Origin: Mimachlamys varia
Taxonomy: Eukaryota; Mollusca; Bivalvia; Pectinida; Pectinidae
NCBI GenBank assembly: GCA_947623455.1
Contig: OX392541.1
Span: 8,808,719-8,872,718 of the forward strand
Direction: 5' to 3'
Length of the DNA stretch: 64,000 bases
Shown: piece by piece, positions 49 through 53,637 of the stretch
Position numbering within the stretch: position 1 is the first letter of the stretch
Layout: each line of letters starts with the position of its first letter
The notes under the pieces: model-generated
Databases searched by the model: none
What the model was told of the DNA's origin: nothing
Seen by the model: only the letters and a program-made list of their open reading frames with translations
Position numbers and translations under genes: made by a program

Positions 49-3000
49 TGTGATGACTCCCGACAGGGCCGTGCATAGTGTGGATGACACAATCAAGGAT
101 ACAATCAAAACTCTCCCAAAAACTGTTGACAAAATCATGCGTTTGAGGTATTTTAATTTTGTTTTTACAAATATTTGTGCTGACTATACCATGTAGGTAC
201 TTTGTGTGATACATATTTAGTTAACTAATTCACCCTGAAAACATATTTGAACTCTTCCAATTCGAAGGTTAGAATAGCTCATTGTACATTTCAGGGGTGA
301 AATCTTCAAATGCCTTTTAGAACTTTAAGGTCTAGTTTAGTTTAGTTTTGTATTGTTTAACAGTTCATCAAGAATGCTTGTACTTTAATTTAGGGCTCAT
401 GCAACACAGTAAAAAGGTACATTGAACAAAATAAATACCTCAAACCAATGTTATAGATATATTAATTGATGTACAGGATTTAAAAATATGTAAACATCAA
501 ACAAATTGGCTGCGAAATATATCATATTTTAGGCCTAGAATAACCAATGGGGGAGTTAATGAGTTAATGATTTCCTGACACTATAACCGTTTCCAGTATA
601 CTCTAACCTTGTATTACAGACAGGATGTCCAGCGACATTACGAAAAGTACCAGCGACCGTACCGTGGCGAGATGGGCATCCAGTCCTACAAACCAAACCA
701 GATAGAGCACTACTTCCTGGTGAGTGAGGCTCTGTAGTTTAATCACAAGTCAACTTATCTCAATTGTTCAGCCTGTTTATTTGTATGCTACAGTAAAAAG
801 TAATGTCAATTTGTGTTCTTACATATATATACGTGACCCAAATCAATGCTGATCTTGTTTGAAAGATTTTTCTTTTTTTAAATTATCACAAAACTTTCAC
901 TTCTGATAAAAAAAATCTGTATTTTTTCCCTGACATGTGACACATATAAAAAATTAGAAAAACTTCAAAGCATTGATTTTTTTGTAATATATTGCTATTT
1001 CAGTGAAATTCTTTCCCTATTCCTTCCGATGATTTTAATAATTAACCAATATACTGAACAAAAACACTGTGACTTGATTTTATGTAATTTGTTTATGACA
1101 ACAATAAGGCTGATTTGTTTGTGAACAGGTGAGGGCTATTCTAGATGACGTAGTGACAGCGTTCCTGGACTCGTACTTTAAGCCTCCCATTCCTCTGGTA
1201 GAGAAGGAGGCCTATACGTAAGTTATCATCATATAGCAAAAGTGTCTTAGAAAAACTGCAGTTATATACAAACAGAAGTTAAAGGGAGGTATTTGTATAT
1301 AGGGGAAGCCGCAATTGCAACATCTTTGGGGGGGGGGGGGGGGGGGGGGGATTTCCGGTAAAGGTGGGGGGGATATCCAGTAAGGAGGGGGGGGGTTCCG
1401 GTAATCTTTGAAAATCTACTCACTCGAATGCATGCGCCATGTTGTGAATCACGACATAGTTCAAATTTTCTTGGACTTTATTACTTTAATTATCAATTCT
1501 TCTATGTGGCCTTGTGTGCAGCCATTATGGACCATGACCTTTACACCATGTAACCCTCTATACATGCATTCGAGAGAGGAGATATCTGGAGATTACTGGA
1601 AATTTCCCTGCGATGTTGTGATTTAGAAAAGCTGCAGGTTAATGAGACAGGGATCGTTAAGGGGAGGTTACTGTAAAAAGGTAAAACCACAGTTTAGTGG
1701 GACAGGGATCCTTAAGGGGAGGTAACTGTGTATAGGTAAAAACACAGTACAGTGGGACAGGGATCCTTAAGGGGAGGTTACTGTGTGTAGGTAAAACCAC
1801 AGTACAGTGGGACAGGGATTATTAAGGGGAGGTTACTGTATATAAGGTAAAACCACAGTACAGTGGGACAGAGATCCTTAAGGGGAGGTAACTGTATATA
1901 GGTAAAACCACACTACAGTGAGACAGGGATCCTTAAGGGGAGATTACTGTATATAGGTAAAACCACACTACAGTGAGACAGGGATCCTTAAGGGGAGGTT
2001 ACTGTGTATAGGTAAAACCACAGTACGGTGAGACAGGGATCATTAAGGGGAGGTTACTGTGTATAGGTAAAACCACACTTCAGTCGGACAGGGATCCTTA
2101 AGGGGAGGTTACTGTGTATAGGTAAAACCACATTACAGTGAGACAGGGATCATTAAGGTAAGGTAACTGTATATAGTTCAAACCACACTACAGTGGGACA
2201 GGGATCCTTAAGGGATGGTAACTGTATATAGGTAAAACCACACTACCGTGGGAGAGGGATTATTAAGGGGAGGTTACTGTGTATAGGTAAAACCACACTA
2301 ACGTGAGAGAGGGATTATTACGGGGAGGTTACTGTATATAGGTAAAACCACACTACAGTGGGACAGGGATCCTTAAGGGGAGGTTACTGTGTATAGGTAA
2401 AACCACATTACCGTGGGAGAGGGATTATTAAGGGGAGGTAGCTGTGTATAGGTAAAACCACACTACAGTGGGACAGGGATCCTTAAGGGGAGGTAACTGT
2501 ATATAGGTAAAACCACATTACAGTGGGACAGGGATCCTTAAGGGGAGGTAACTGTATATAGGTAAAACCACAGTACAGTGAGACAGGGATCGATAAGGGG
2601 AGGTTACTGTGTATAGGTAAAACCACACTACAGTGGTGCAGCTTTTCACCCTGAGGTTTTGTTTTTGGCAGAGATGATATGGGAAGTGAGTGGTTGCTAA
2701 CATCTGTTTATACTGAGTGTCTGGTTGTGTGTTTGTGTACAGGGCATTGGTTGAAAAAGACAGCAAAGACCTGGAGAAGGCAGCCCTTGCTCTGTCCGAG
2801 AGAAAGGCAGTCCAGCTCATCATGGAGGAACTTGTCCTCGATGTAAGTCACCATGACAACACAGCTAGGATCTGTAGATATCACCATGACAACATTGCTA
2901 TGGACTGTAGATATTACCATGACAACATGGCTAGGTCTGTAGATATCACCATGACAACATGGCTAGGTCTGTAGATATCACCATGACAAGATGGCTAGGG

Positions 3001-6000
3001 TCCGTAGATATCACCATGAAAATATGGCTAGGATCTGTAGATATCACCATGATAACATGGCTAGGGTCTGTAGATATCACCATGACAACATGGCTAGGGT
3101 CTAGATATTACCAAGACAACATGGCTAGGGTCCGTCGATATCAACGTGACAACACAGCTAGGGTTTATAGATAACACCTTGAAAACATGGCTAGGGTCTG
3201 TAGATATCACCATGACAACATGGCTAGGGTCCGTCGATATCAAGGTGACAACACAGCTAGGGTTTATAGATAACACCTTGAAAACATGGCTAGGGTCTGT
3301 AGATATCACCATGACAACATGGCTAGGGTCCGTTGATATCAACGTGACAACATGGCTAGGGTGTGTAGATATCACCATGACAACATAACATCTAAAATGG
3401 TATGTTCCTTAAAAAAAATATTGAAATTTGAAATAAATCAGGAATTATAACATATATTATGATGCAGAAATTATGCATGTTTTCTCTGTTGCCAGGTAAC
3501 AAGTGACATGACCCAGGAGGCTGTAGATGAACAGAAACATACATACGGAATGGTTAGAAACATGGCCTTTAAGGAAGTGATGAGCAGGACAGAAGTACGT
3601 TACCAATCTCATCAATATCAGCAGTATATCTGATTCTCAATAATGTTTGTGTGGATGGCTAATCAATGTTGTTATGCCCCCGCCATGAAATGGGGGGGGG
3701 GGGGGCATATAGTGTTACATATGTCCATTCCGTCCCGTAATGTTGCATCCCATCGCGTTGGGTCCCATCACGTCCCGTCATGTCCCGTCATGTCCGTCAT
3801 GTCCCGTCATGTCCCGTCATGTCCCGTCATGTCCCATCATGTCCCGTCATGTCCCGTCATGTCCCATCCCGTCCCATCCCGTCCCATCCCTTGGTAATGT
3901 TACCAGCTGTTGGAGGGGGCATTTGTGTCTCACAGACATTTCTAGATTTATATTTAAACTGATGGTATATGAGGATACATATTACCTACTGACCTGTGAT
4001 AGAGAAGCTAACAATATATTTTGTTTCCTTAATAGAAGAAGAATTACACTAGATTCAGTTAAATATTAAGTATCAAGGACAAGTTCAGGGATGTCAGCTC
4101 AAGGTCACTTACTATTTTAGAAAATCCTTGTCAGGGATGAAGCGGCGTCATTTCCTGAGAGATATTGATCCAACTTTTGATCAATAACAAAGGACCATAA
4201 TATCTTTAACAAAGTTGTCCAGAATCTTTATCAAATCATCATTGTGTAAAAGTTATAGGGGGCCGGTAGGAGACATGTATTGCTTAAACAATAGTGTACT
4301 TGTTTATTCAGAATGATGGGAAAACAATGGAAAAAACACTCTTTTGTGATTTTGAAGAAATTATCAAATATTCTTTTTCTTGTACATGTTTGCAAATATG
4401 CTTTTTAGAAACCAAACATTAAATGATATCATCACTCAGAATACTATGATCAGACAAATTTTGGCACACTCATGTTTAAGCACATCACCAAACTTAAACA
4501 AATTAGACATTGGTACACTCACAATACTTGCTGTTGAAAGCAATATACAGCAATTGTAATTTAACAGTCATGACTAAGTTGAATGATTTCAATTTAAAAT
4601 TCACTTAATTTATAAAATGCATAAATATGTATGCATGTTTATAGTACATCAAAATTCTTTGTTTTCTGCTATTTTCTCACTAATATTGCCACACTTGGCT
4701 CAGTACAAGATTAAACATAATTTCACCCTGATTCCCTATGAATATTGTTCACATTGTTTTAGGCCATAGTTCTTGGAGAGGATCAGGGGAGACAACCCAA
4801 TGACCAGGGCTACAGTATGGTGACCAAGACATTCTTTGGCTACCAGCAACAGAGGAACAGACAAAGGTAAGCATATTACAGGTTGAGCTTTGTAACCGAT
4901 TTGTTCCAGAATTAACGATGTAGGAATGGCAGGAGGCCCCATTGGCCATCACCCATCAGGTATAAAAAGAAATTTATAGTACAAGGTATATAGGCAGATC
5001 TGGTTTTAATTCTATTTTATATACCCATGATATATTAAACAGATGCATGGCTCCCCACACCATTAATTATGGAATAGCCCTTGCTGAATTTTTAGGAAGT
5101 TTTTCTTTAGACTTTGAGGATGTTACCCGGGTAATTTGTTTAGGTTACTCCAATGTTTAGACCCTGCTGGAATGTGTTTTCATATTTGTATTGGTATTAT
5201 ATTTAAACTGTTGTCAATAGAGTTTTTCTGGTGACACTGAATGTAACACATAAAATCAAACCTCGTTATCTCAAACTTGGTAGGACCGTGGGAAAACTTG
5301 GAATTTTCCCAGTAATCAAGTTTTATGAGTTTGTATCTTTAGTGTAAGTTTGGCATGGGATCAATGAAATACTCGGAATAAACAGGGTGTTTGAGTTATA
5401 CAGGTTTGGAATAGTGAGGGTCCTGTGTATTCTGATTAATTAAGTTTTAGTAAAATTATTTCCTTGTTGCAAATTCTTTAAATAGAAATTAAGCAGATTT
5501 ATCATTTGTTTCAAATTATATCAATCCTGTTATGGGCCCACTCTTTTACTTTTGAACTGGACAAGAGTTAAACATTTCCAGTTTCTAAACTCTTTCAATT
5601 CAAAATCATATGGCAGTTATATGAAAACTGATTCCTTATAAAGTTTTTTTTTAATTTCAATTTTCTGTAGCATGTCTGAATACACTTCTTTTATGAAGAA
5701 TTAAGGCAAAACCTCATTCCTGGAATGTATATTATTATTATCAGTTTTTTGTCCTATCCAAAAATGTGAACAGTCAGCATGAAATGGAATCAGTTTTTTT
5801 TTGTCATATTATCATATGAAAATGGGTCAAGATCATCTTCAAGAATCAATGTCTGGTTTTTTAGAATTAGTTAAATACCACTTAAAACAAAAGAAATATG
5901 AATTGGGATCAATTCCCACTTCTCAGTGTAAATAAAAATATACACTGTACTTATTCTCTTGAAAGTTAATATAAATGACCTCATTAACCCCTAAATTTTC

Positions 6001-12200: not shown

Positions 12201-15200
12201 AAATGAATCTTTTTTCTGTTTTTCCTATCCAGAGTTAAGTTAATTTCAGCGGTGCTCTTTATATTGAAATTTAAAGGCTAAGAAGGAAATGGCTTAAAAG
12301 TTTATTTCATGATTACTAAATGACCAAGAAATAAGAAATTGGAAAAACTTGATAATACATTATATGTTTTACTAGAACATTGGTTTGGTTATAAAATATA
12401 AATTTTGATAAAACAGTCAGTTTCATATAAAGTAAAAGAAATAACAAGTAATAACCAAATAATTTTGTCAAAAGCAGCTGTTTAAGGCACCTGACAGGTA
12501 GTTTTTTAATTGGCTCCTATATGCATTTTCTGCTCAGCATGTCTGAGAGCTAATTTTCCAAAACTAATTAGCACTCGAGCTATTATATGAAATACAGTAC
12601 ATTAAAGTATACATGTATTCGTTTTTACATGTTTCTATATAATTGATACAGATTAATATTCCTGGTAGCCATGGTGATATTCCTGGTAGTCCTGATGATT
12701 TTCCTGGTAGCCATGGTGATATTCCTGGTAGCCATGGTGATATTCCTGGTAGCCATGTAACGTTAGTCCTTGTAGGTTGTAACATGATAGTAATAGTTCT
12801 GGTTACCGTAGTGATAGTCCTAGTAACTATGGCAATGTATTGTAGGGACGATGAGGAGGACCCAGACGTTGTAGTATTAGAGTATCATCAAATCATCCCA
12901 GTAGATATTAGAACCTATGACCCAGTTCGAACAGACACCCCAGACGTCAAGCAAAATAAACGCCTTTATCAGAATTATATGACCAAGGATGTGGAGTACT
13001 GGTCGGTGAGTACAGAATCTTATATTCAGAATTTTTCATTTGATGTTAAAAGTTTGTAGAAAAGTTTTGTTACAGGAAGGGAGGGGGTTATTTCACACAG
13101 AACAAAAAAGTTAAGAATCAACAGACACCTTTGAAGAACCTTGATTCTGAACTCTTGACCAACACTATTAGCTTAACCCGAACCTTGATTTTGGGTTTCG
13201 AATCTTGGATCTTCTGAACTCTTGACCAACATTTTAAAGATACCCAAACTTAGATTTTGCTCGTCTGACTAACCTCAAAGAATTAAAACTTTGTATATTT
13301 AAATACTTTTATTTAGCTTTTAGGCAAAAATATTTGTATCAAATGTGTCTTAACTCATTCATCACGTACGCTTCATAATGATCTATATGTATACCAACTT
13401 TTGAATTGTAGTAGAAATCTATGGGCCCGTGGTTCAAACCACGATATGATCACAACATTTTCTCTTTCTCCTCTTGCACAACAATGTGACAAATTTGTTA
13501 ACTCTGTGTTATATTGGTACTCAACTATCGGACAATTTGCCTACAGCTTATATACACTTAACTAAAACATTACTGGCTTTATGGGTATAAACATAGATCA
13601 CACAAGTACATGTATCTATTGCAGTATTTGTCCATGAATGAAGTAGATTGTTTTTTGTAAAAAGGACATTTTCTGTTATTTTAAATGAAAAGAGATGATT
13701 GTTTCCAACAGAGAGTAAATGCGACCCTAGAACGAATAAATCTCCCTAAAAGATGTGGCGGAGTCTTATCCATGTCTCGGTCACCGAATCAACGGTTCCT
13801 AGCCGTGGGAACCATTCACGGTAAGAAGCCCATGCACCTATATTCCATACTTATATAAAGCTTGAAATATTTGAAAACTGTGAAGCTTTGATGATTAGGT
13901 ACTTGGACTGAGTTTCACAAATTCTACACATAGACGTAACTTAAACATAGAATAACTTAGGTCATTCATGAGTTTTATTAAAGGTGGTAAATCAATGTGA
14001 AAATGGACGAAAATAGTAAAAGGGTTGAAATTTAATCTATACAAAATAAACTTGCATGTGTGTGGCAATATCTCAGATGAATCTGTATTTCACATTACTT
14101 TATTGTTGAAAAGCGAGGTGACATAATTACCCCTGATATGTACCAAATATCTGCCACCATCACCTGAGCTATTCAAAATCAGTTTCTTGGTTCCCTTTTT
14201 AACTGAGGATAATATTGCACAAAGTAACACACTACCCGTAGGTGTGTGTGTGTCACAGTTTGCTGTAGACATCTATAGGCAATTTTTGAACTGTTCACCA
14301 ATCACGGGTGCCTGATAATAGTATGTATAACACAGGGGCCTGATGATATATGTATAACACAGGGGCCTGATAATATTTTTTTAACACAGGGGCCTGATGA
14401 TAATATGTATAACACAGGGGCCTGATGATAATATGTATAACACAGGGGCCTGATGATATGTATAACACAGGGGCCTGATGTTAATAGGTATACTGTCAAG
14501 GGCCTGTATAACACAGGGGCCTAATGATAATATGTATAACACAGGGGCCTAATGATGATATGTATAACACAGGGGCCTAATGATAATATGTAAAACACAG
14601 GGGCCTGATGATAATATGTATAACACAGGGACCTGATGATAATATGTATAACACAGGGGCCTGATGATAATATGTATCACACAGGGACCTGATGATAATA
14701 TATATAACACAGGGGCCTGATGATAATATGTATAACACAGGGACCTGATGATAATATGTATAACACAGGGGCCTGATGATAATATGTATAACACAGGGGC
14801 CTGATGATAATATGTATAACACAGGGGCCTGATGATAATATGTTTAACACAGGGGCCTGATGATAATATGTATAACACAGGGGCCTGATGATAATATGTA
14901 TAACACAGGGGCCTAATGATAATATGTAAACTGTCAAGGGCCTGTATAACACAGGGGCCTGATGTTAATATGTATACTGTCAAGGGCCTGTATAACACAG
15001 GGGCCTAATGATAATATGTATACTGTCAAGGGCCTGTATAACACAGGGACCTGATGATAATATATATAACACAGGGGCCTGATGATAATATGTATAACAC
15101 AGGGACCTGATGATAATATGTATAACACAGGGGCCTGATGATAATATGTATAACACAGGGGCCTGATGATAATATGTTTAACACAGGGGCCTGATGATAA

Positions 15201-18200
15201 TATGTATAACACAGGGGCCTGATGATAATATGTATAACACAGGGGCCTAATGATAATATGTAAACTGTCAAGGGCCTGTATAACACAGGGGCCTGATGTT
15301 AATATGTATACTGTCAAGGGCCTGTATAACACAGGGGCCTAATGATAATATGTATACTGTCAAGGGCCTGTATAACACAGGGGCCTGATGTTAATATGTA
15401 TTTTGTCAAGGGCCTGTATAACACAGGGGCCTGATGTTAATATGTATACTGTCAAGGGCCTGTATAACACAGGGGCCTGATGTTAATATGTATACTGTCA
15501 AGGGCCTGTATAACACAGGGGCCTGATGATAATATGTATACTGTCAAGGGCCTGTATAACACAGGGGCCTGATGTTAATATGTATACTGTCAAGGGCCTG
15601 TATAACACAGGGGCCTGATGATAATATGTATACTGTCAAGGGCCTGTATAACACAGGGGCCTGATGTTAATATGTATACTGTCAAGGGCCTGTATAACAC
15701 AGGGGCCTGATGATAATATGTATACTGTCAAGGGCCTGTTTAACACAGGGGCCTGATGATAATATGTATACTGTCAAGGGCCTGTATAACACAGGGGCCT
15801 GATGAAAATACCTATGTATAATGATGAAAATACACAGGGGCCTGATGATAGTTGACCTGTTTCAGGGGATTGTATGATCTATGACACGTGGACGGTGCCA
15901 TGGAGACCAATCAAAGTGATAGTAAATAACCAGGGAGGAAACGACGCCATTTTATATATAGCCTGGAGTCTGGACAGCTCCCGGCTCATCACCACAACTG
16001 CATCGGTACGTATATTCTACACTTCTTTAGCTTGATTTAGAATCTTAATGTTTACAGCCCATATAAAAACACAGAAGGTCATATAACTAGGCTTTTAGTG
16101 ATGGTAGATAATAGATGACGTGGTATTACATTGACCTTCTGTAGTCACAAGAATTAAGAATTAAGGGAGTTTGATTGGTCTGTTTTAAAAAGGAATCAAT
16201 TTTTCGGAACTCCTCTGCCTTTTCCCCCCAACAACAATTTCTGAATGTCTAAAGTTAAATATTTGCATAAATGTATATATGATCAGATGTTACCAGCTGT
16301 GCATGTTCTCCTATTTGAAATTGTTGAATAAAGTTCACATAGAACCTGTAAAAGCATTCATTAGGGATTAGGTTGCCTTACAAACGCAGACTGAAGGCAA
16401 TCTCCCTTTTCGCTTAGAGGTACAGTATTGGACTGAAGAGCCGAAGGTTCGTGACAGGTTGGAGGCTCAACAATTTCAGCACTATCTTTATCACTATTCC
16501 TTGTCCCATTTCAAAACTTTCATTTAATGTGTAACACTATTAGTTAAAATCTTAACATTATAAAAGAAAAGTGTTATAATGATATTCTGAGATGGTTTTA
16601 CATGTACTTTTTATTGGTGTCCAGGGCCTGGTCAACGTGTGGTCATTCTTGGGTGGAGGACTGAGGAAGTCGGACACAAAGAGTCTTGGTATACAGCCGG
16701 ACTCTGACGGTCAACTCCCGAAACAGCTGGGACTGATGTTTCAGTTTGACGTAGATGAGAACGACTTCATGTTTTACCAAGGTGAGTTCAGGTTGTCTCC
16801 AGGTTTGTTTAAAACATTTTCATGACCTAGATCACCTTTCTGTTTTACCAAGGTAAATAGACTTGTCATCAGATTTGTGAAAAACATTTTTATGACCTTG
16901 ATTGATCATATTTCTGTGTGAGTGAAAGTTGTCTTAATTCAGATTCATTGAAAACATTTCCTTGACCTTGATCATATTTCTGGTAGATTCTTCCTTTTAA
17001 CCTTAGGATTTTATGATGTTGTAGCCATACAAGATAAAGTGTTTCACCCTTTGTAATTCTAATATACATGAAGCTTCCCAGGTACAATAACATGCATCCT
17101 CGATATCCAGGGGTTACGATCACCTATGTAATCTACACCCCTGGAATATATCATGGCAAAATTGAAAGTTCCCGGGTCTGCCACCTAGCGGTCGGTGTGT
17201 GTTGTGTCCCTTTGAATCACGTAATCACCACCAATTAAAATGTGTGTAACAAAACAGCTTCAGCAATGAATGTAAACATAGAAGAACATCTCATTCGGTT
17301 GATCTGTGAAAAATTCAAGCTTGATCAAATTAGACAGCATCAGGAAACGGTGATCCACGCACTGAGTCCTTCGTTACCGTAAATGTGTCGGTGAAGATTG
17401 TTCTTCTGTTTTACTGGTAAAGATCCATGACACAGTCGACACTGTGCCATGTTTGTTTACATTTTTTTCCAGCCATACCTAGCTGCATCCAATGAAAATT
17501 CTCTTCGCGGGATATACGAAATGTGGTCTATTTATGCCAAGGGTGAAGATGAGTGTGCGGATCGTAACCCTTGGCTAGCGAAGATGAATAACATGTAGTT
17601 GAAAAGGCACAGTGATTTTGGTTAAATTCTTTACAGTTAGATTTTAACCCTAGCTGTCATCCCCAGAAAACTTCAGTAGACTCAACCATGGATTGATATG
17701 GATATCGCCATTATGGTTCACGGTGGTGACTGTACATTTATGAACATTAATTGCTTAATTTCAGAATGTATGGAGTTCTTTTTGTTAACTCAAAGTAAAA
17801 TTCCATTAGAGTTTAACAGATTTTACTTAAGCTTGAGGCAATGATAAGTGTGTGATCTTTCTGCAGACTTTGATATAGTGGGTTAACAGCTCTCGTTTTT
17901 GAAGTTGGAGACAGTTTGGGAAATTTCCTTCCACTTATACATGTGACACTGCTATTTTATAATTTGAGGACCATTTGTGGGGCAGGAAACACCAAATTAC
18001 ACAAGAGCTACATGTGACACTGTAATTTTATTGTTTTAGGACCGTTTGTGGAGCAGGAAACACTCACACAGAGCTACCAGCCAACAGTGGCTGCTTTTTA
18101 CCCAAGCTTTACATTTTTTGGAATCCAGGTAAAAAAATATGGAAGGAAAATTTTTGCAAAACCCTCCAATTACATTTTGTATTATGGCCACCCAATAACA

Positions 18201-21200
18201 CAGTGTTAATCTGGATTGTATTTACTGGACTATAATTTAGATGTTATCTATACCACTGGACAATACCATGACATCATTTTAGCCCCATGTTGACCTACAA
18301 TATGTCAATACTTTGCACATCAACTAAAATAATACACATTGTAGCTTTATGTTAATAATTTAGCATATCTTGATTTTTAAAACAAATTCCTGTATGTTAA
18401 CATACAACGTGAAGAACTGTTGTGAAATAGAAAAAATGACTTGATTATGTATTAGATATCATCTGATAAATATAGCCATTGAACATCTGTCAGATTGTAT
18501 TTATCGTCAATATGAATGCAATCTGGGTGTCAAATGAATAATCACGATGTCCGAGCTAATGGATGTCATTCTATTGATCTTGCACCCGGAATGCATTCAT
18601 ATTGACAATAAATACAATCTGACAGACATTCAATGATGAAATAAAGCAGTTGAAATATTTTTTACAAATCTTAATGAGAATGTGCTGAAAGGGCACCTTT
18701 AAAAAAATGTCAAAGAACAGACTTGGAAGCCATTTGTTTTGTGTATTTTATCTCGTCTATGAAGAAATGCATCATAATATAATATTGTTTTACTTGTAGA
18801 ATATGATTTGCCTCGCTTTGGAGAATGGAGATGTCCTTAAGGCTGATCTGGAATATGCCCTCGGCAGTTCATCATCGACTAACTTTACGGAGGCCCCGAA
18901 AATCATCAACCAGATGAACTTTGTAAGATTGATTCATTTGGGAATATCTATTAATGTTTTCTACCTGATAAATATGTATAATTTAATTCAAGGTTCTTGT
19001 ATACTACTTTATCACAACTTATAGGTCATCTTAAATCAGTTCATAAATTATTATCCGTGGTTATAGGGCCTTAGCAACCAGCCATATTGTTCTCAAATCC
19101 CTACCAGGAGCATGCAACTAGTGCTGCCATTTCAGGCTCACAGCTAGCATTATACAACTTATAGCACTGCGCAACAACATACTCATTTACAGTTGAGTAA
19201 ACTGGAAAAAGTAGAGTAAAGTATCTTGTTCAAGGATTATACACAAGTGTCGGGGCCGGGACTCGAACTCACAACCCTTCAATCATGGGCCTGCGACTCC
19301 TACCTCTATACCACTGGGCCTCTAAACACCTGTCGCTATAAGAACACCACACCTTTTTCAGGGAAACCGGCTGGATGTTCTTATTAAGAAAAGTTCCCTA
19401 CCTCACTGATCTTCCAATACAATTCCAGTCTTTTAACCAACGACTTTGTTCCAGAAAAATGAAAACACACTTTATATTTATGATTTCAGATTGAAACTTT
19501 CCCTTGTACTGATGCTTTTATTAATCGCATCCATTTGTTTTTTTGTGAGTGGACAGTGTATTTATTAGGTCAAATAAGATATATGATTTTCAAGTACAAA
19601 AGAAAAGAGCTATTGTTAATGATCACAAGAAATGAATAGTATGTAAGATCACAAGTATAAGAAATTCAGGGAAAAAACACTTTTAAGGGGTTTGGAATTT
19701 TTTTTTTTAATTTTAATTTTACCAAAACTATGCTATATGTATATATACATGGCTACCACAAATTGGATTGAACAGACCCTTCAAACACCTAATGTGAATC
19801 CATTTAGGGCTGTTTCAGAATAAATCATATGGGAGTGGTTGGAGGCACAAAGTAATATTATTAAAAGTGATATAATTTTGGTGAGCAGATATGGTTTTAA
19901 CCCTACCATCCATGACTTTAATAATACAGGTGCCTTCCACCCACCCCCCCCCCCCCCCCCCCCCCACACACACAATTAATCATGGAATATCCCTTAGATA
20001 TCTTTATGAAAATATACACAAATCTTTTTCATTATGATTAAAAAAGTAGAATGAAATGTTTTAATCCCAATCAACTAAAAGCATTTAAATTTCCTGTCAA
20101 CGTCAGCCTTGTAAACTGCTCATACAATTTTCTTCAAGTAGTCTTTAAAGAATTGTTCCTGATTACTTGATTATACTTAAAAAGTTACAACAATAGACAT
20201 TGTTTGTCAATACAATCGACCCTTACATTTCAAAATGAACTATTCCAACTTTTGTATAATTGATTGACTGGGCTGTCCACAGGAGGAGCTTGAAGGTATC
20301 AACGTTATCGGGAAGGGAATCGAGGCCGAGCTCCTGAGACGTCACAAGACAATCATCATGTTCATCGGATACGTCGACAACATCAATCGCCTCGTCACCG
20401 TGGATGTGGACGGCTACATGATGCTGTGGAAGCTCGACAAGTAAGGCTTACATCCATGAAGATGATCATTTTGAGAACTTGATGTTTACATGGATGTGAC
20501 AAAGATTTACATGGCGGGTGTCTTCGACGCTTACTCTTCCGGAACACTTGGTCTTATTTTCTTGTACTTTTACAAGAGTCTCCATGTAAATCTTTCCTTT
20601 GTTCTTATTTTGCCCCTGGTTTAATCGATTTTGAGTGTGGATTATGATTTTGTTAACGCTTCGGTATTCTCTTATTTAATCCACGAAAAGGACAAGAGCA
20701 GTGAATGTTTTCTCTTGCTTAGCAGGCCATCATCAGTTTATACATTTTGTTTTGAATAAGTAAATGAAAGGAAGATTTGATAGAAATGTTTATATCACTG
20801 CTCAATTAACAGACTTCATTTCATAGCCAATTGTCTTGAAACTTTTTACATGTTTTCAAACTTTACTTTTTGTAGGACATTACTATTCAAAGTCATATTT
20901 ATGAGAGATGATAACTCTAGCTTGCATTCCCCAAAATTTTTTATAGCTGGCACACATGTTTGCAGAACATTGGTTATCAAGTGAATGTCATTGTAGACTT
21001 GAGTTAGGTATTGACTTACACTGTACACTGATGTGAAATTGTCTGATACTGTACACTGATGTGATATTGTCTGATACTGTACACTGATGTGATATTCTGA
21101 GTTTTCTGTGACAGTGAGAACATGACTACTACAGGATGGTATGTACCGGAGTTTAAGTACAGGATCGCCGCGTCTAAGGCCATGTATACACCCATTACCA

Positions 21201-27200: not shown

Positions 27201-30200
27201 AACAGGCAAATTTTAAATGATGTCTAAACGCTTTAAACTTTATTATTTATAATGTGTATCATGAAGGCATGTACATGTACATATGTACGTGTAATTATTT
27301 AACAATTTATTATTTTTCCACCAATATAATAACAGTATGGCTGACTGATGGACAAGTCCTAAATTGAATAGTATGTTGTAGTCTTAGTAAACTCTCTAAT
27401 ATTTTTTTACACCTGTATGAATTAATTAAATTATATTTGTAATATTTACGATGGGCAGTCCAATTTACAAATGACCTGTGCAGTATATACTTGCATGTGG
27501 ACTTTAGGCCAGGTACTTTGTCTGTTTAGTCATACATGATTTAATTTTCACCTGCCTGTCATCAAATAAATTTAAAGGTTTGCCTGTCTCTTTGTTTGGG
27601 TAAGGGTACTGTATTCCAATATCGAGAATTTCGGGGGTTTCTGAGATGTTACAACTCTGCGCTTGCGATCGATAAATAAAAGTGTGGATCATTATAGCTT
27701 TTTAGAAAGGGAAATATATAGGGAATGGATGGAAGCTGTTCGTTTTTCTATAGTATGAACGGAAAATAAGTTTTTATGACTGTTTTGTAACGAGGTCCAG
27801 GTATTTTCTGCCACGGAGTTGCATACCTTCTCTCTTTTCAGTGTCTGATAGTCGAGTTTTTGTGAAATTTAACCGCTTGACGTATCAAGCTGAAATTTGG
27901 CAGTTATTTTCATTATGGTTTTAGATGATTAATAACATAAAAAGAAAATTGGAAAATTTAGTTGATATATTTTAGTTTATTTTTTCAAATTTCGCTATAT
28001 TCTATAGATATATATATATATGGTTATTATCCTGGCCATAAGTGCCTGTGAATGTACAAATTTTAGTGGTTATTTTATTTTAGCAGTTTTTGCGCTGAGA
28101 GTATTCCCCTAAATTATGAATGCAGTTATTACCGTTTCTGTATATTGCTCTCTACAGCAAGAATTTTGAGTAACTAATTCATTAGTGCACTTTTATATTT
28201 ATCTGTTAAAATTTGGTTTAATATGTGCCAAAATTTCAGTGAGCATAAATAAGTATGTTTACATTATTTCTAGCGGTAGGTGAACCCTCACTTCTTTTGT
28301 TTGTTTTTGTATGCAATTATATAAGACATGTTTCATTTGTTTGAAGGTGAGCCAGACTTATGGACCAACAGGTTCGTCCTACATAATGGTGAACATCCGT
28401 GGTGAGTTGAAGGCATTTTCCCTGACAACGGGACGACAAGTCATCATGATGGAGCGTGAGGAAGACAGATTCTCAGGTAAACACTAATTCTTCTGGACTC
28501 TCAGGTAAACGTTATAGAAAACTTTATTCCTCCTGGACTCTCAGGTAAACACTAATTCTTCTAGACTCTCAGGTAAACATTATAGAAAACATTATTCCTT
28601 CTAGACTCAGGTAAACACTATAGAAAACAATATTCCTTCACGACACTCAGGTAAACATTATAGAAAACATTATTCCTTCTGGAGTCTCAGGTAAACACTA
28701 TAGAAAACATTATTCCTCCTGGACTCTCAGGTAAACATTATAGAAAACATAATTCCTTCTGGACTCTCAGTAAACACCATAGAAAACATAATTCCTTCTG
28801 GACTCTCAGTAAACACCATAGAAAACATTATTCCTCCTGGGCTCTCAGGTAAACATTATAGAAAACATTATTCCTCCTGGACTCTCAGGTAAACACTATA
28901 GAAAACATTATTCCTCCTGGACTCTCAGGTAAACACTATAGAAAACATTATTCCTTCTGGACCCTCAGGTAAACACTATAGAAAACGTTATTCCTTCACG
29001 ACTCTCAGGTAAACACTATAGAAATCATTATTCCTTCTGGACTCTCAGGTAAACACTATAGAAAACATTATTTCTTCTGGACTCTCAGGTAAACACTATA
29101 GAAAACATTATTCCTTCACGACTCTCAGGTAAACACTATAGAAAACATTATTCCTCCTGGACTCTCAGGTAAACACTATAGAAAACATTATTCCTTCACG
29201 ACTCTCAGGTAAACACTATAGAAAACATTATTCCTTCTGGACTCTCAGGTAAACACTATAGAAAACACTATTCCTCCTGGACTCTCAGGTAAACACTATA
29301 GAAAACATTATTCCTCCTAGACTCTCAGGTAAACACTATAGAAAACATTATTCCTCCTGGACTCTCAGGTAAACACTATAGAAAACATTATTCCTTCTGA
29401 ACTCAGGTAAACATTATAGAAAACATTATTCCTTCTGGAGTCTCAGGTAAACACTATCGAAAACATTATTCCTCCTAGACTCTCAGGTAAACACTATAGA
29501 AAACATTATTCCTCCTGGACTCTCAGGTAAACACTATAGAAAACATTATTCCTTCTATTCCTTCTGGACTCTCAGGTAAACACTATAGAAAATATTATCC
29601 CTTCTGGACCCTCAGGTAAACACTATAGAAAACATTATTCCTTCACGACTCTCAGGTAAACACTATAGAAATCATTATTCCTTCTGGACTCTCAGGTAAA
29701 CACTATAGAAAACATTATTCCTTCTGGACTCTCAGGTAAACACTATAGAAAACATTATTCCTTCTGGACTCTCAGGTAAACACTATAGAAAATATTATTC
29801 CTTCTAGACTCTCAGGTAAACACTATAGAAAATATTATTCCTTCTAGACTCAGGTAAACACTATAGAAAACATTATTCCTTCTGGAGTCTCAGGTAAACA
29901 CTATAGAAAACATTATTCCTTCTGGACTCTCAGGTAAACACTATAGAAAACATTATTCCTCCTGGACTGCCAGGTAAACATTATAGAAAACATTATTCCT
30001 TCTTGAGTCTCAGGTAAACACTATAGAAAATATTATTCCTACTGGACTCAGGTAAACACTATAGAAAACATTATTCCTCCTGGACTGCCAGGTAAACATT
30101 GTAGAAAACATTATTCCTTCTTGAGTCTCAGGTAAACACTATAGAAAACATTATTCCTTCTGGACTCTCAGGTTAACACTATAGAAAACATTATTCCTTC

Positions 30201-33200
30201 ACGACTCTCAGGTAAACACCATAGAAAACATTATTCCTTCACGACTCTCAGGTAAACACCATAGAAAACATTATTCCTCCTGGACTCTCAGTAAACACTA
30301 TCGAAAACATTATTCCTTCTGGACCCTCAGGTAAACACTATAGAAAACATTATTCCTTCTGGACTCAGGTAAACACTATAGAAAATATTATTCCTTCTGA
30401 ACTCTCAGGTAAACACTATAGAAAACATTATTCCTCCTGGACTGCCAGGTAAACACTATAGAAAACATTATTCCTCCTGAACTCTCAGGTAAACACTATA
30501 GAAAACATTATTCCTTCTGGACTCAGGTAAACACTATAGAAAATATTATTCCTTCTGGACTCAGGTAAACACTATAGAAAACATTATTCCTCCTGGACTG
30601 CCAGTTAAACACTATAGAAAACATTATTCCTTCTGGACCCTCAGGTAAACACTATAGAAAACATTATTCCTTCTGGAGTCTCAGGTAAACACTATAGAAA
30701 ACATTATTCCTTCTGGACTCTCAGGTAAACACTATAGAAAACATTATTCCTCCTGGACTGCCAGGTAAACATTATAGAAAACATTATTCCTTCTTGAGTC
30801 TCAGGTAAACACTATAGAAAATATTATTCCTTCTGGACTCAGGTAAACACTATAGAAAACATTATTCCTCCTGGACTGCCAGGTAAACATTGTAGAAAAC
30901 ATTATTCCTTCTTGAGTCTCAGGTAAACACTATAGAAAACATTATTCCTTCTGGACTCTCAGGTTAACACTATAGAAAACATTATTCCTTCACGACTCTC
31001 AGGTAAACACCATAGAAAACATTATTCCTTCACGACTCTCAGGTAAACACCATAGAAAACATTATTCCTCCTGGACTCTCAGTAAACACTATCGAAAACA
31101 TTATTCCTTCTGGACCCTCAGGTAAACACTATAGAAAACATTATTCCTTCTGGACTCAGGTAAACACTATAGAAAATATTATTCCTTCTGAACTCTCAGG
31201 TAAACACTATAGAAAACATTATTCCTCCTGGACTGCCAGGTAAACACTATAGAAAACATTATTCCTCCTGAACTCTCAGGTAAACACTATAGAAAACATT
31301 ATTCCTTCTGGACTCAGGTAAACACTATAGAAAATATTATTCCTTCTGGACTCAGGTAAACACTATAGAAAACATTATTCCTCCTGGACTGCCAGTTAAA
31401 CACTATAGAAAACATTATTCCTTCTGGACCCTCAGGTAAACACTATAGAAAACATTATTCCTTCTGGACTCAGGTAAACACTATAGAAAATATTATTCCT
31501 TCTGAACTCTCGGGTAAACACTATAGAAAACATTATTCCTTCATGACTCTCAGTAAACATTATAGAAAACATTATTCCTCCTGGGCTCTCAGGTAAACAT
31601 TATAGAAAACATTATTCCTCCTGGACTCAGGTAAACACTATAGAAAACATTATTCCTCCTGGGCTCTCAGGTAAACATTATAGAAAACATTATTCCTCCT
31701 GGACTCTCAGGTAAACACTATAGAAAATATTATTCCTTCTGGACTCAGGTAAACACTATAGAAAACATTATTCCTCCTGGACTGCCAGGTAAACACTATA
31801 GAAAACATTATTCCTTCTGGACTCTCAGGTAAACACTATAGAAAACATTATTCCTTCACGACTCTCAGTAAACACTATAGAAAACATTATTCCTTCTGGA
31901 CTGCCAGGTAAACACTATAGAAAACATTATTCCTTCACGACTCTCAGGTAAGTACTATAGAAAACATTATTCCTGTTGGACCCTCAGGAAAATTAATCCG
32001 AACTACATCCAAGACTATCAGTTTGTAACAGTTCTCCTTCGTGCCTTTCTACACTGTTACATTTTTTTACCAGTGTATTTATAAAAAAGCAACCATGAAA
32101 TCAACCTGACCTTCCCAAACTTCTTGGCCTTTGAGTTTATTTAACAGAATCGTTATGTTTCATTCCTTTTGTTTTTCATTAGAACTTCAGAAACTGACAC
32201 AGTACATATATGTTTGAAATGCTGGCTTTTCTAATATGTATTTTACATTGATGTTTGACCTGCTAGGTTTTCCGGGATGTCTTATTGACGCCTCGGATTG
32301 GGACCTTCCTCGGAACTTGGAGGTCAGTGTAACGTGTTCAAAGGGCAAGATGTATGCAGTTTTCTATGGACAGGTAACTATTTCCCACTCCAGATATCTA
32401 TTTCCCACTCCAGGTAACTATTTCCCACTCCAGGTAACTATTTCCCACTCCAGGTAACTATTTCCCACTCCAGGTAACTATTTCCCACTCCAGGTAACTA
32501 TTTCCCACTTCAGGTAACTATTTCCCACTCCAGGTACCTATTTCCCACTCCTGGAGATACAGAGGAAAATAATTGGGGTACATTTATGTAAGCAATTGAA
32601 ACGGTTCAAAGAATATACCAGGTACAGATTTGGACCAAAGCTAATCTCTGGAAAATTCGGCACAGGTAGTTTAAAGGTTCAAAAGTACCTGGCCGAAACT
32701 AAATTGCGGACTACTGCTAGTTCATCTTATTTCTTTCTAAAACTATGTCAATCAGTTTTTATCCTCCAAAACTTCGGACTTTTGGGTCTACCTATGGTTC
32801 AAAACAAGTGTGTTTGTTTAACATGGAATATTTCTGTTCCAAAATTACCGTTTCAACCGGCTATGTGAATGCAGCCTTGGTGTACTTAACCAATGTTCAC
32901 CAGCTACAGTTTCTAAACTCACCTGGCGTCACATTGGTAAAGTGTTGTAATATTGTGATTGTAATCTTTACGTTGTAAAATTTTGGCCTATACCTGGGCT
33001 ATTGGTCACCGAGGCTTATTGTAAACTTCACATTGTAACATTTTGGCCTATACGTGGGCTTATGGTCACTGAGGCCTATTGTAACTTTACATTGTAACAT
33101 TTTGGCCTATACGTGGGCTAATGGTCACCGAGGCCTATTGTAAACTTAACATTGTAACATTTTGGCCTATAGTATACAGTTAATTCATGCCCTTTTATAA

Positions 33201-49940: not shown

Positions 49941-50460
49941 CATCCTCGATATCCAGGGGTTACGCTCACCGACGCTCTCTACACATCCTCGATATCCAGG
50001 GGTTACGCTCACATACGCTCTACACATCCTCTATATCCAGGGGTTACGCTCACCTACCTCTCTTCACATCCTCGATACCCAGGGGTTACGCTCACCGACG
50101 CTCTCTACACATCCTCGATATCCAGGGGTTACGCTCACCTACGCCCCTTCACCACTGGAATTATACATATGTCATGGCAAAACTGGAGGCTCGCCTTGCT
50201 GATGAGACAAGGAAACTGGTTCGACCCTTTGATGTACATCAAAAAAATCTCGTGGTCACGTAACGGTAAAATTTGAGAGGCTGTGACTCCTTTGTAATCT
50301 TCAAATGACAGGCATGCAGGCAAGCTGTTGGTCTAGTTTTTTTTAGCTGAGCATACCTTCAGTTTTGCCATGCCATAGTATAGGGATGTAGAGAGCGAAG
50401 GTGATCGTTCAAGTTCACGTTCTTCATTTACCAAATCGTAGCCCCTAGATATCGAGGATG
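49941..50460 (+). mobile_element. TIR transposon of the 9-bp-TSD family; left TIR amplified about 5 times
   Basis: The left end consists of about five tandem ~43-bp units starting CATCCTCGATATCCAGGGG. The right end has the single complement ending CCCCTAGATATCGAGGATG. Flanks AACATGACG and AACATGACA match at 8 of 9 positions. Subterminal CATGGCAAAACTG and CAGTTTTGCCATG are inverted too, so the element is largely palindromic around a central unique part holding ACTGGTTCGACC and CTTTGTAATCTTCAAA. Confidence 0.82.
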
Positions 50461-52910: not shown

Positions 52911-52913
52911 AAT

Positions 52914-53637
52914 CGTCCTAAATATCCAGGGGTTACACTCACCTACACTCTCTATACCCCTGTAATCATTCTCGATATCAAGGGGTTACGCTCACCTACG
53001 CTCTATATACCCATGGAATCATCCTCGATATCCAGGGGCTACGCTCATCCTACGCTCTCTACAAGCTGAAATCATCCTCGATATCAAGGGGTTACACTCA
53101 CCTTACACTCTCTACGCCCCTGGAATCATCCTCGATATCCAGGGGTTACGCTCATCTACGCTTTCTACGCCCCTGGAATCATCCTCGATATCCAGGGGTT
53201 ACGCTAACCTTCGCTCTCTACACACCTGAAATCATCCTCGATATCCAGGAGTTCCGCTCACCTATGCTCTATACACCCCTGAAATCATCCTCGATACCCA
53301 AATGTTACGCTCACCTACGCTCTCTACATCACTGAAATCATCCTCGATATCCAGGAGTTCCGCTCACTTACGCTCTCTACAACCCTGGAATATTTCATGG
53401 CAAATCTCAAGGCACGCTAAGGTAAAAAAAAAAACGATCAATAGATCGATCAATGCCTGTCTTTTGAAGATTACAAAGACGCCATAACCGACTTCAAAGC
53501 TTGTCAGTTTTTACCGTAATGTGCCCACGAGATTCGAACCAGTCGTCTTGCCTCATTAACAAGACGAGTCTTCAGTTTCTTCATGACATATTCCTGGAGT
53601 ATAGAAGGGTTTGTGTATTCTCTGGATATCGAGGATG
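52914..53637 (-). mobile_element. TIR transposon of the 9-bp-TSD family; opposite-end TIR amplified about 8 times
   Basis: About eight tandem ~55-60-bp units (ATCCTCGATATCCAGGGG, then TTACGCTCACCTACGCTCTC, then TACACCCCTGGA) run from 52914 to about 53400. The window-right end is the single complement GGATATCGAGGATG. The central part (GATTCGAACCAGT, TTTGAAGATTACAAAGACGC) is the reverse complement of the centre of the 49941 copy, so the amplified end is the opposite one. A related 9-mer pair at the flanks (CAACATAAT / CAAAATGAC) is too decayed to prove a duplication. Confidence 0.78.

Follow-up and report, generated by a model that had tools for sequence, protein, structure and literature searches.

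Minisatellites made of exon–intron boundaries are known from amphioxus as 'mirages'; their units carry AG/GT, and regular splicing is reported to be undisturbed by them (PMC3087553; our comparison covers part of the text of this and of the other papers cited here). We describe a comparable array in the scallop Mimachlamys varia, within a stretch of 64,000 nucleotides (assembly GCA_947623455.1, contig OX392541.1, positions 8,808,719 to 8,872,718, forward strand; hereafter the window), where 89 copies of a unit of about 40 bp begin at the 5' splice site (donor) of one exon of an uncharacterised gene. Like the mirages, the scallop arrays are tandem repeats over an exon–intron boundary with many AG/GT-bearing units. 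Both donor and acceptor sides are affected in amphioxus, and the scallop has an acceptor-side case at a locus outside the window (L009). The two differ in scale, since 89 units, and at least 10 kb of 64-bp-spaced copies on contig C1, compare with 6 and 3 units in the amphioxus globin example, and they differ in that the mirage host is a cephalochordate whereas the host here is a mollusc, with a genome-wide pattern count (PMC3087553).

Recursive splicing sites share with the scallop units a pyrimidine tract and a CAG joined to GT, the fly consensus being (Y)nNCAG/GTAAGT. Unlike these sites, the scallop units stand in tandem where a 3.8-kb intron meets its upstream exon, carry GTAAGT in 1 of 89 cases, and are known here from DNA (PMC5126111). 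In intron gain by AGGT tandem duplication (the Rogers model; fission yeast and potato) the duplicate bears AGGT, as here, and is present as several 24-bp copies in the fission yeast case; the new intron of that model, however, arises at the boundary with an acceptor or else inside an exon, whereas the scallop copies are intronic and downstream of the presumed donor (PMC4974935). The minisatellite in intron 3 of an abalone TSSK1-like gene (27-bp unit) is length-variable and, as here, lies in a molluscan intron, but anchoring at a donor, as in the scallop array, is not described in the part of that text covered (PMC6905558). Titles and the starts of abstracts, mostly of open papers, yielded no report of donor-anchored arrays in bivalves or scallops, and PMC5802833 and PMC4039745 had no bearing on the matter. 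On that coverage, the phylum of the host, the number of copies and the excess across the genome seem to be new.

The array at the exon 21 donor

The gene model comprises 24 exons in the window, and after splicing the reading frame stays open across 17 of them, including the exon 21–22 junction. Exon numbers are relative to the window, as the Mizuhopecten yessoensis homologue begins further upstream than the window model. The features of the array and its flanks are as follows.

28347..28476, forward strand: exon 21, coding, ending in AGATTCTCAG; supported by tblastn with P0001, P0003, and P0004, by the open 17-exon frame, and by three scallop homologues with 87–92% identity to the whole model
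28477..31987, forward strand: tandem array anchored at the donor, with 89 units of about 40 bp and the consensus GTAAACACTATAGAAAACATTATTCCTTCTGGACTCTCAG (Tandem Repeats Finder, TRF, and unit tables)
30042..30677, forward strand: 636-bp stretch with an exact second copy 791 bp further on (30833-31468)
31948..31987, forward strand: last unit, with a CAG/GTAAGT donor, ending in CCCTCAG then G and having CTCAGG in common with the end of exon 21; possibly what is left of the intron start in its single-copy state
32267..32373, forward strand: exon 22

TRF called a single array (28479-31992, period 40, 88.8 copies, 89% matches). The unit count varies by method, with 89 units when the array was cut at the junction, 88 cuts with a stricter regular expression, and 87 units aligned in the nine-array comparison below; the sequence-only reading of this DNA, which had put about 87 copies of a 40-bp unit at the exon 21 donor, was right. 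The GTAAGT donor of the last unit, the array at the exon 22 donor and the repeated 636-bp stretch are additions to that reading. Unit 1 begins exactly at that donor (28477), so that the tandem repeat abuts the exon–intron boundary as the mirages do, and the junction AG/GT is intact in 80/89 units, which likewise gives many AG/GT-bearing units. CAG stands ahead of the unit in 88/89 cases, and CAG/GTAAAC is present in 77/89. The unit-start hexamers were GTAAAC (78 units), TAAACA (6, one G lost), GTTAAC (2), TTAAAC (2), and GTAAGT (1). Adjacent junctions lie 28–49 nt apart, and the aligned units fall into 45 distinct forms among 89. The final 10 nt of the unit match those of exon 21 at 8/10 positions when compared by eye. 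Exon 21 ends in TTCTCAG then G, and the last unit, whose sequence is GTAAGT... CCCTCAGG, ends in CCCTCAG then G. The array-bearing intron 21 is 3.79 kb long, and 279 bp of repeat-free intron separate the array from exon 22. We rejected the possibility that the 40-bp unit is a dispersed element, as the window outside the array has only 11–12 bp matches to it; a search of viral contigs for 29 bases of the unit found nothing.

The joined acceptor–donor form that the sequence-only reading had attributed to the units was borne out, with donors of average strength and more pyrimidines than in 18/22 real acceptors of the gene. On a donor matrix, 77/89 units scored 7.52, equal to the exon 21 donor, which ranks 11th among the 21 real donors scored (exons 1, 2, and 7 left out), and the donor of the last unit (31948) scored 12.6, above all 21 (best 12.31). 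The pyrimidine share at positions -20 to -5 had a mean of 0.73 over 88 units, a level reached by 4/22 real acceptors. The branch motif yTnAy was missing at 83/88 units and also at 9/22 real acceptors. Between positions 1 and 34968, pyrimidine-rich YAG/GTRA sites numbered 76 in the array at 28477, 6 in a second array at 32374, and 2 at true acceptors whose exons start with GTAA, whereas 21,393 bp of intron outside arrays contained none (0.7 expected under a first-order Markov model). The ratchet-like form of the sites is therefore real, far above chance, and confined to two arrays. The donor side of the fly recursive-site consensus is matched by 1/89 units, as against the 76 sites of the array with the looser form.

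When exon 21 was extended to the unit ends, the reading frame was open in 0/89 cases, and for pseudo-exons of whole units up to 400 nt it stayed open in 19/825. Productive 40-nt pseudo-exons were rejected on these counts, and splicing at internal sites would in most cases do harm, because the exon extensions and most pseudo-exons break the frame.

Protein searches with the translated exons returned relatives, two of them from named molluscs, and a 938-aa model found homologues in Mizuhopecten yessoensis (92% identity), Pecten maximus (89%), and Ylistrum balloti (87%), in keeping with a scallop host. In the proteins of these three scallops exons 21 and 22 are joined without an insert, although those species may lack the array. 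The alignment around exons 21 and 22 comprised nine homologues out of the 24 proteins found. In three oyster homologues (P0014, P0023, P0008) the exon 21/22 junction is a length-variable, mostly acidic stretch that does not resemble the array. The host gene may be WD-repeat-like, to judge from weak beta-propeller matches; the link to cilia made in the sequence-only reading is unproven.

Donor arrays in the host gene and genome

Three further arrays lie at donors of the same gene.

32374..32553, forward strand: array anchored at the donor of exon 22, the second of this kind, with 9 units of 20 bp, GTAACTATTTCCCACTCCAG (TRF)
16770..16902, forward strand: duplicated exon 11 donor, 70-bp unit in 1.9 copies, made of 12 nt of exon (TGTTTTACCAAG) and the intron start (TRF)
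2843..3386, forward strand: 33-bp array starting 5 nt past the exon 4 donor GAT/GTAAGT (TRF)

The internal units of the array at 2843 mostly have GTAGAT or weaker at the donor position, and YAG/GTRA is absent from it. The introns of the gene hold 17 arrays after manual merging of TRF rows, and 4 of these have their start no more than 12 nt from a donor (2843, 16782, 28477, and 32374) when 0.34 are expected (exact tail 2.9e-4); for 3 or more such starts the probability is 0.0043. No array of the 17 ends within 12 nt of an acceptor and 2 end within 20 nt. These two, at window positions 14303-15848 and 21009-21096, stop 17 and 18 nt ahead of the acceptor, near the position of the pyrimidine tract. 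A 55-bp array at 1646-2636, 428 bp past a donor, contains 15 YAG/GTRA sites that are not pyrimidine-rich. A further minisatellite motif (CATCCTCGATATCCAGGGGTTACG...) is dispersed over three places in the window (17095, 49941-50144, and 52911-53391).

Donor-motif repeats were then counted over 975,302,275 bases of the genome; the counts refer to overlapping places, not arrays, and those of repeats are lower bounds. Three CAGGTRAGT words spaced 6–36 nt apart were counted 7272 times and the reversed pattern 387 times, an 18.8-fold excess. The single word occurs 42,303 times against 9,630 reversed, giving a triple-to-single ratio of 17.2% against 4.0%, and the excess after normalising by single words is 4.3-fold. 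CTCAGGTAAAC has 1409 occurrences and its reversed form 248, and many of the listed places lie within arrays of other units.

Thirteen arrays outside the window were inspected, being the first places listed on contig C1 and thus a non-random sample. Six of the 13 begin at an exon end, four of these with exons supported by database matches.

L009: T-type calcium channel exon (phmmer, 2.1e-61, two joined exons)
L012: DNA-PKcs exon (3.5e-19); the unit includes 20 nt of it
L064: dynein axonemal heavy chain exon (2.3e-40)
L063: CUB exon (5.3e-6)
L036: open frame, 26 nt of it in the unit; family match not significant
L059: open frame; family match not significant
Also at L009 (reverse complement 4623-5096), on the acceptor side: boundary array with 7.9 copies of a 60-bp unit, made of 12 nt of intron end (TTATCTCTACAG) and the start of a T-type calcium channel exon

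No exon was recognisable at L011 (judged by letters without frames), L013, L060/L066, and L062, and L010, L017, and L061 were ambiguous. The unit at L009 consists of 45 nt of exon and 9 nt of intron in 42 copies, and the consensus copy is without two arginine codons that are still present in the first copy, as expected if the first copy alone is exon. We take these arginine codons to belong to the S4 helix of the channel. The same locus has a second donor-motif array (24 bp, 32 copies). At C1:1020280-1030885, CAGGTGAGT or CAGGTAAGT recurs along at least 10 kb, the spacing being in most cases a multiple of 64 bp, starting from a CUB-domain exon. Nine of the 15 loci around further CTCAGGTAAAC places (L015, L016, L018, L019, L023, L024, L025, L027, and L028) have upstream open frames of equal length, and these nine may represent one dispersed family or element.

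The sequence-only reading had named a splice core no better conserved than the rest of the unit as evidence against function. In the array at 28477 this was not the case: variability was 0.016 in the CAG/GTAAAC core and 0.075 in the rest of the unit (one-sided rank test, p 0.0035), and the core was the lowest of 40 rotations. In a second alignment of this array it was third of 40, and 6/49 distinct changes fell in the core, which makes up 9/40 positions, a marginal deficit (p 0.054). In the 20-bp array at 32374, 4/5 changes fall in the core. Over the other eight arrays of a nine-array comparison, in which two arrays had 5 or fewer units, the core ranked 8/54, 9/24, 21/34, 34/64, 66/66, 27/38, 41/54, and 18/20 among the rotations. 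Five arrays had 20 or more units, and among them the core was clearly less variable than the rest in the array at 28477 and in both arrays of L009, equal in L036, and higher in L017, where the exon is unclear and AGGT is kept in 2/22 units. Our reading is that the arrays were homogenised and differ by chance, not through selection, although the 28477 and L009 arrays lean the other way. The functions that the sequence-only reading had inferred, namely stepwise removal of the intron, pseudo-exons, and sequestering of U1 or U2AF, are unsupported, as core conservation is inconsistent over the nine arrays and the three scallop proteins join exons 21 and 22 directly.

Origin of the array

The array at 28477 is probably a minisatellite that arose when the boundary between exon 21 and intron 21 was amplified in tandem. 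Its start at the donor, the AG/GT in most units and the likeness of unit end and exon end are accompanied by such arrays at other exon ends of the genome, some with far more exon in the unit. The seed would have been a 40-bp duplication between the CTCAGG at the exon end and the CTCAGG at +36, a step that the last unit appears to preserve. Unequal exchange and duplication of a 791-bp block would then have expanded and homogenised the array, and the later copies, intronic by position, would be removed with the intron in one step. Growth of the array may have been tolerated because the first donor still terminates the exon. Likewise, the units may resemble acceptors, with their pyrimidines and CAG, because a stretch of intron was joined to a copied exon end and not because of selection for splicing. 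Among the possibilities offered by the sequence-only reading, a neutral array that happened to capture the junction comes nearest to this account, but such capture recurs in the genome.

Several points weigh against this origin. That the first donor is the one used is presumed; the exon part of the 40-bp unit is short (the 8/10 nt noted above), and the array at 32374 has no more than CAG in common with its exon. In the 28477 array few stretches vary as little as the core, and the L009 arrays also have a core below the rest (0.008 against 0.081, and 0.024 against 0.077). The relatives with aligned proteins, in which exons 21 and 22 are joined, may lack the array. The 12-nt limit behind the donor enrichment within the gene was chosen after the arrays had been seen, and one of the four donor arrays is the starting finding itself. 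Finally, the preference of arrays for donors is not explained by neutrality alone.

It is improbable that an ordinary intronic minisatellite simply met a donor by chance in a minisatellite-rich genome. Most of the arrays in the gene's introns (13/17) do lie away from donors, and among the 13 motif arrays outside the window 4 start without a recognisable exon and 3 more are ambiguous. However, the donor enrichment within the gene (4/17 against 0.34 expected), the 18.8-fold pattern excess (4.3-fold after normalisation), and the exon sequence held inside the units of other arrays all speak against a chance meeting. Partial misassembly, in which a duplicated block inflates the copy number, would account for the exact 636-bp repeat 791 bp away, but the units vary (45 distinct forms among 89) and such arrays occur at many places in the genome, and we regard an artefact as very unlikely.

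Two accounts in which the units act in splicing draw on the joined form of the sites. Recursive splicing would proceed through internal ratchet sites, most likely the CAG/GTAAGT at 31948, where the preceding array would be lost in a single step and a stronger donor regenerated 319 bp before exon 22. The score of that donor (12.6 against 12.31 for the best real one) and the core, lowest of 40 rotations here and below the rest in 3/5 arrays with 20 or more units, are in line with it. Yet the intron is merely 3.79 kb long, and its junctions, 28–49 nt apart, are too close for unit-by-unit splicing. In addition, yTnAy is missing at 83/88 units (although also at 9/22 real acceptors) and the core is poorly conserved in other arrays, and we consider this route quite improbable. 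Alternatively, some 80 decoy donors with their pyrimidine tracts could bind U1 and U2AF and so slow or tune transcript processing. A donor equal to the real one is carried by 77/89 units, and 7 contiguous bases of the unit donor can pair with U1. A regulatory role of this kind is nevertheless hard to credit when 6 units have lost a G and with it AG/GT, AGGT is left in 2/22 units of the L017 array, and donor arrays occur in unrelated genes.

More speculatively, and on balance doubtfully, the 5' splice junction in scallops could be a hotspot of tandem amplification coupled to transcription or splicing, with donor arrays at perhaps hundreds of exon ends by extrapolation from the first places listed for the spaced pattern. 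Some of these arrays might turn into ratchet sites or give rise to new exons and introns, and the CAG/GTAAGT that ends the present array would be a candidate.

The arrays at this and at other exon ends of the genome suggest that splice junctions are able to seed repeat DNA. Boundary minisatellites, known from some amphioxus genes (PMC3087553), recur in conserved genes of a mollusc, among them those for a calcium channel, DNA-PKcs, and an axonemal dynein. The arrays offer a natural experiment on how, among dozens of identical donors, the spliceosome keeps to the first one and on how often new exons or introns arise from such arrays, and they raise the question of why tandem repeats arise at donors more than elsewhere in introns.

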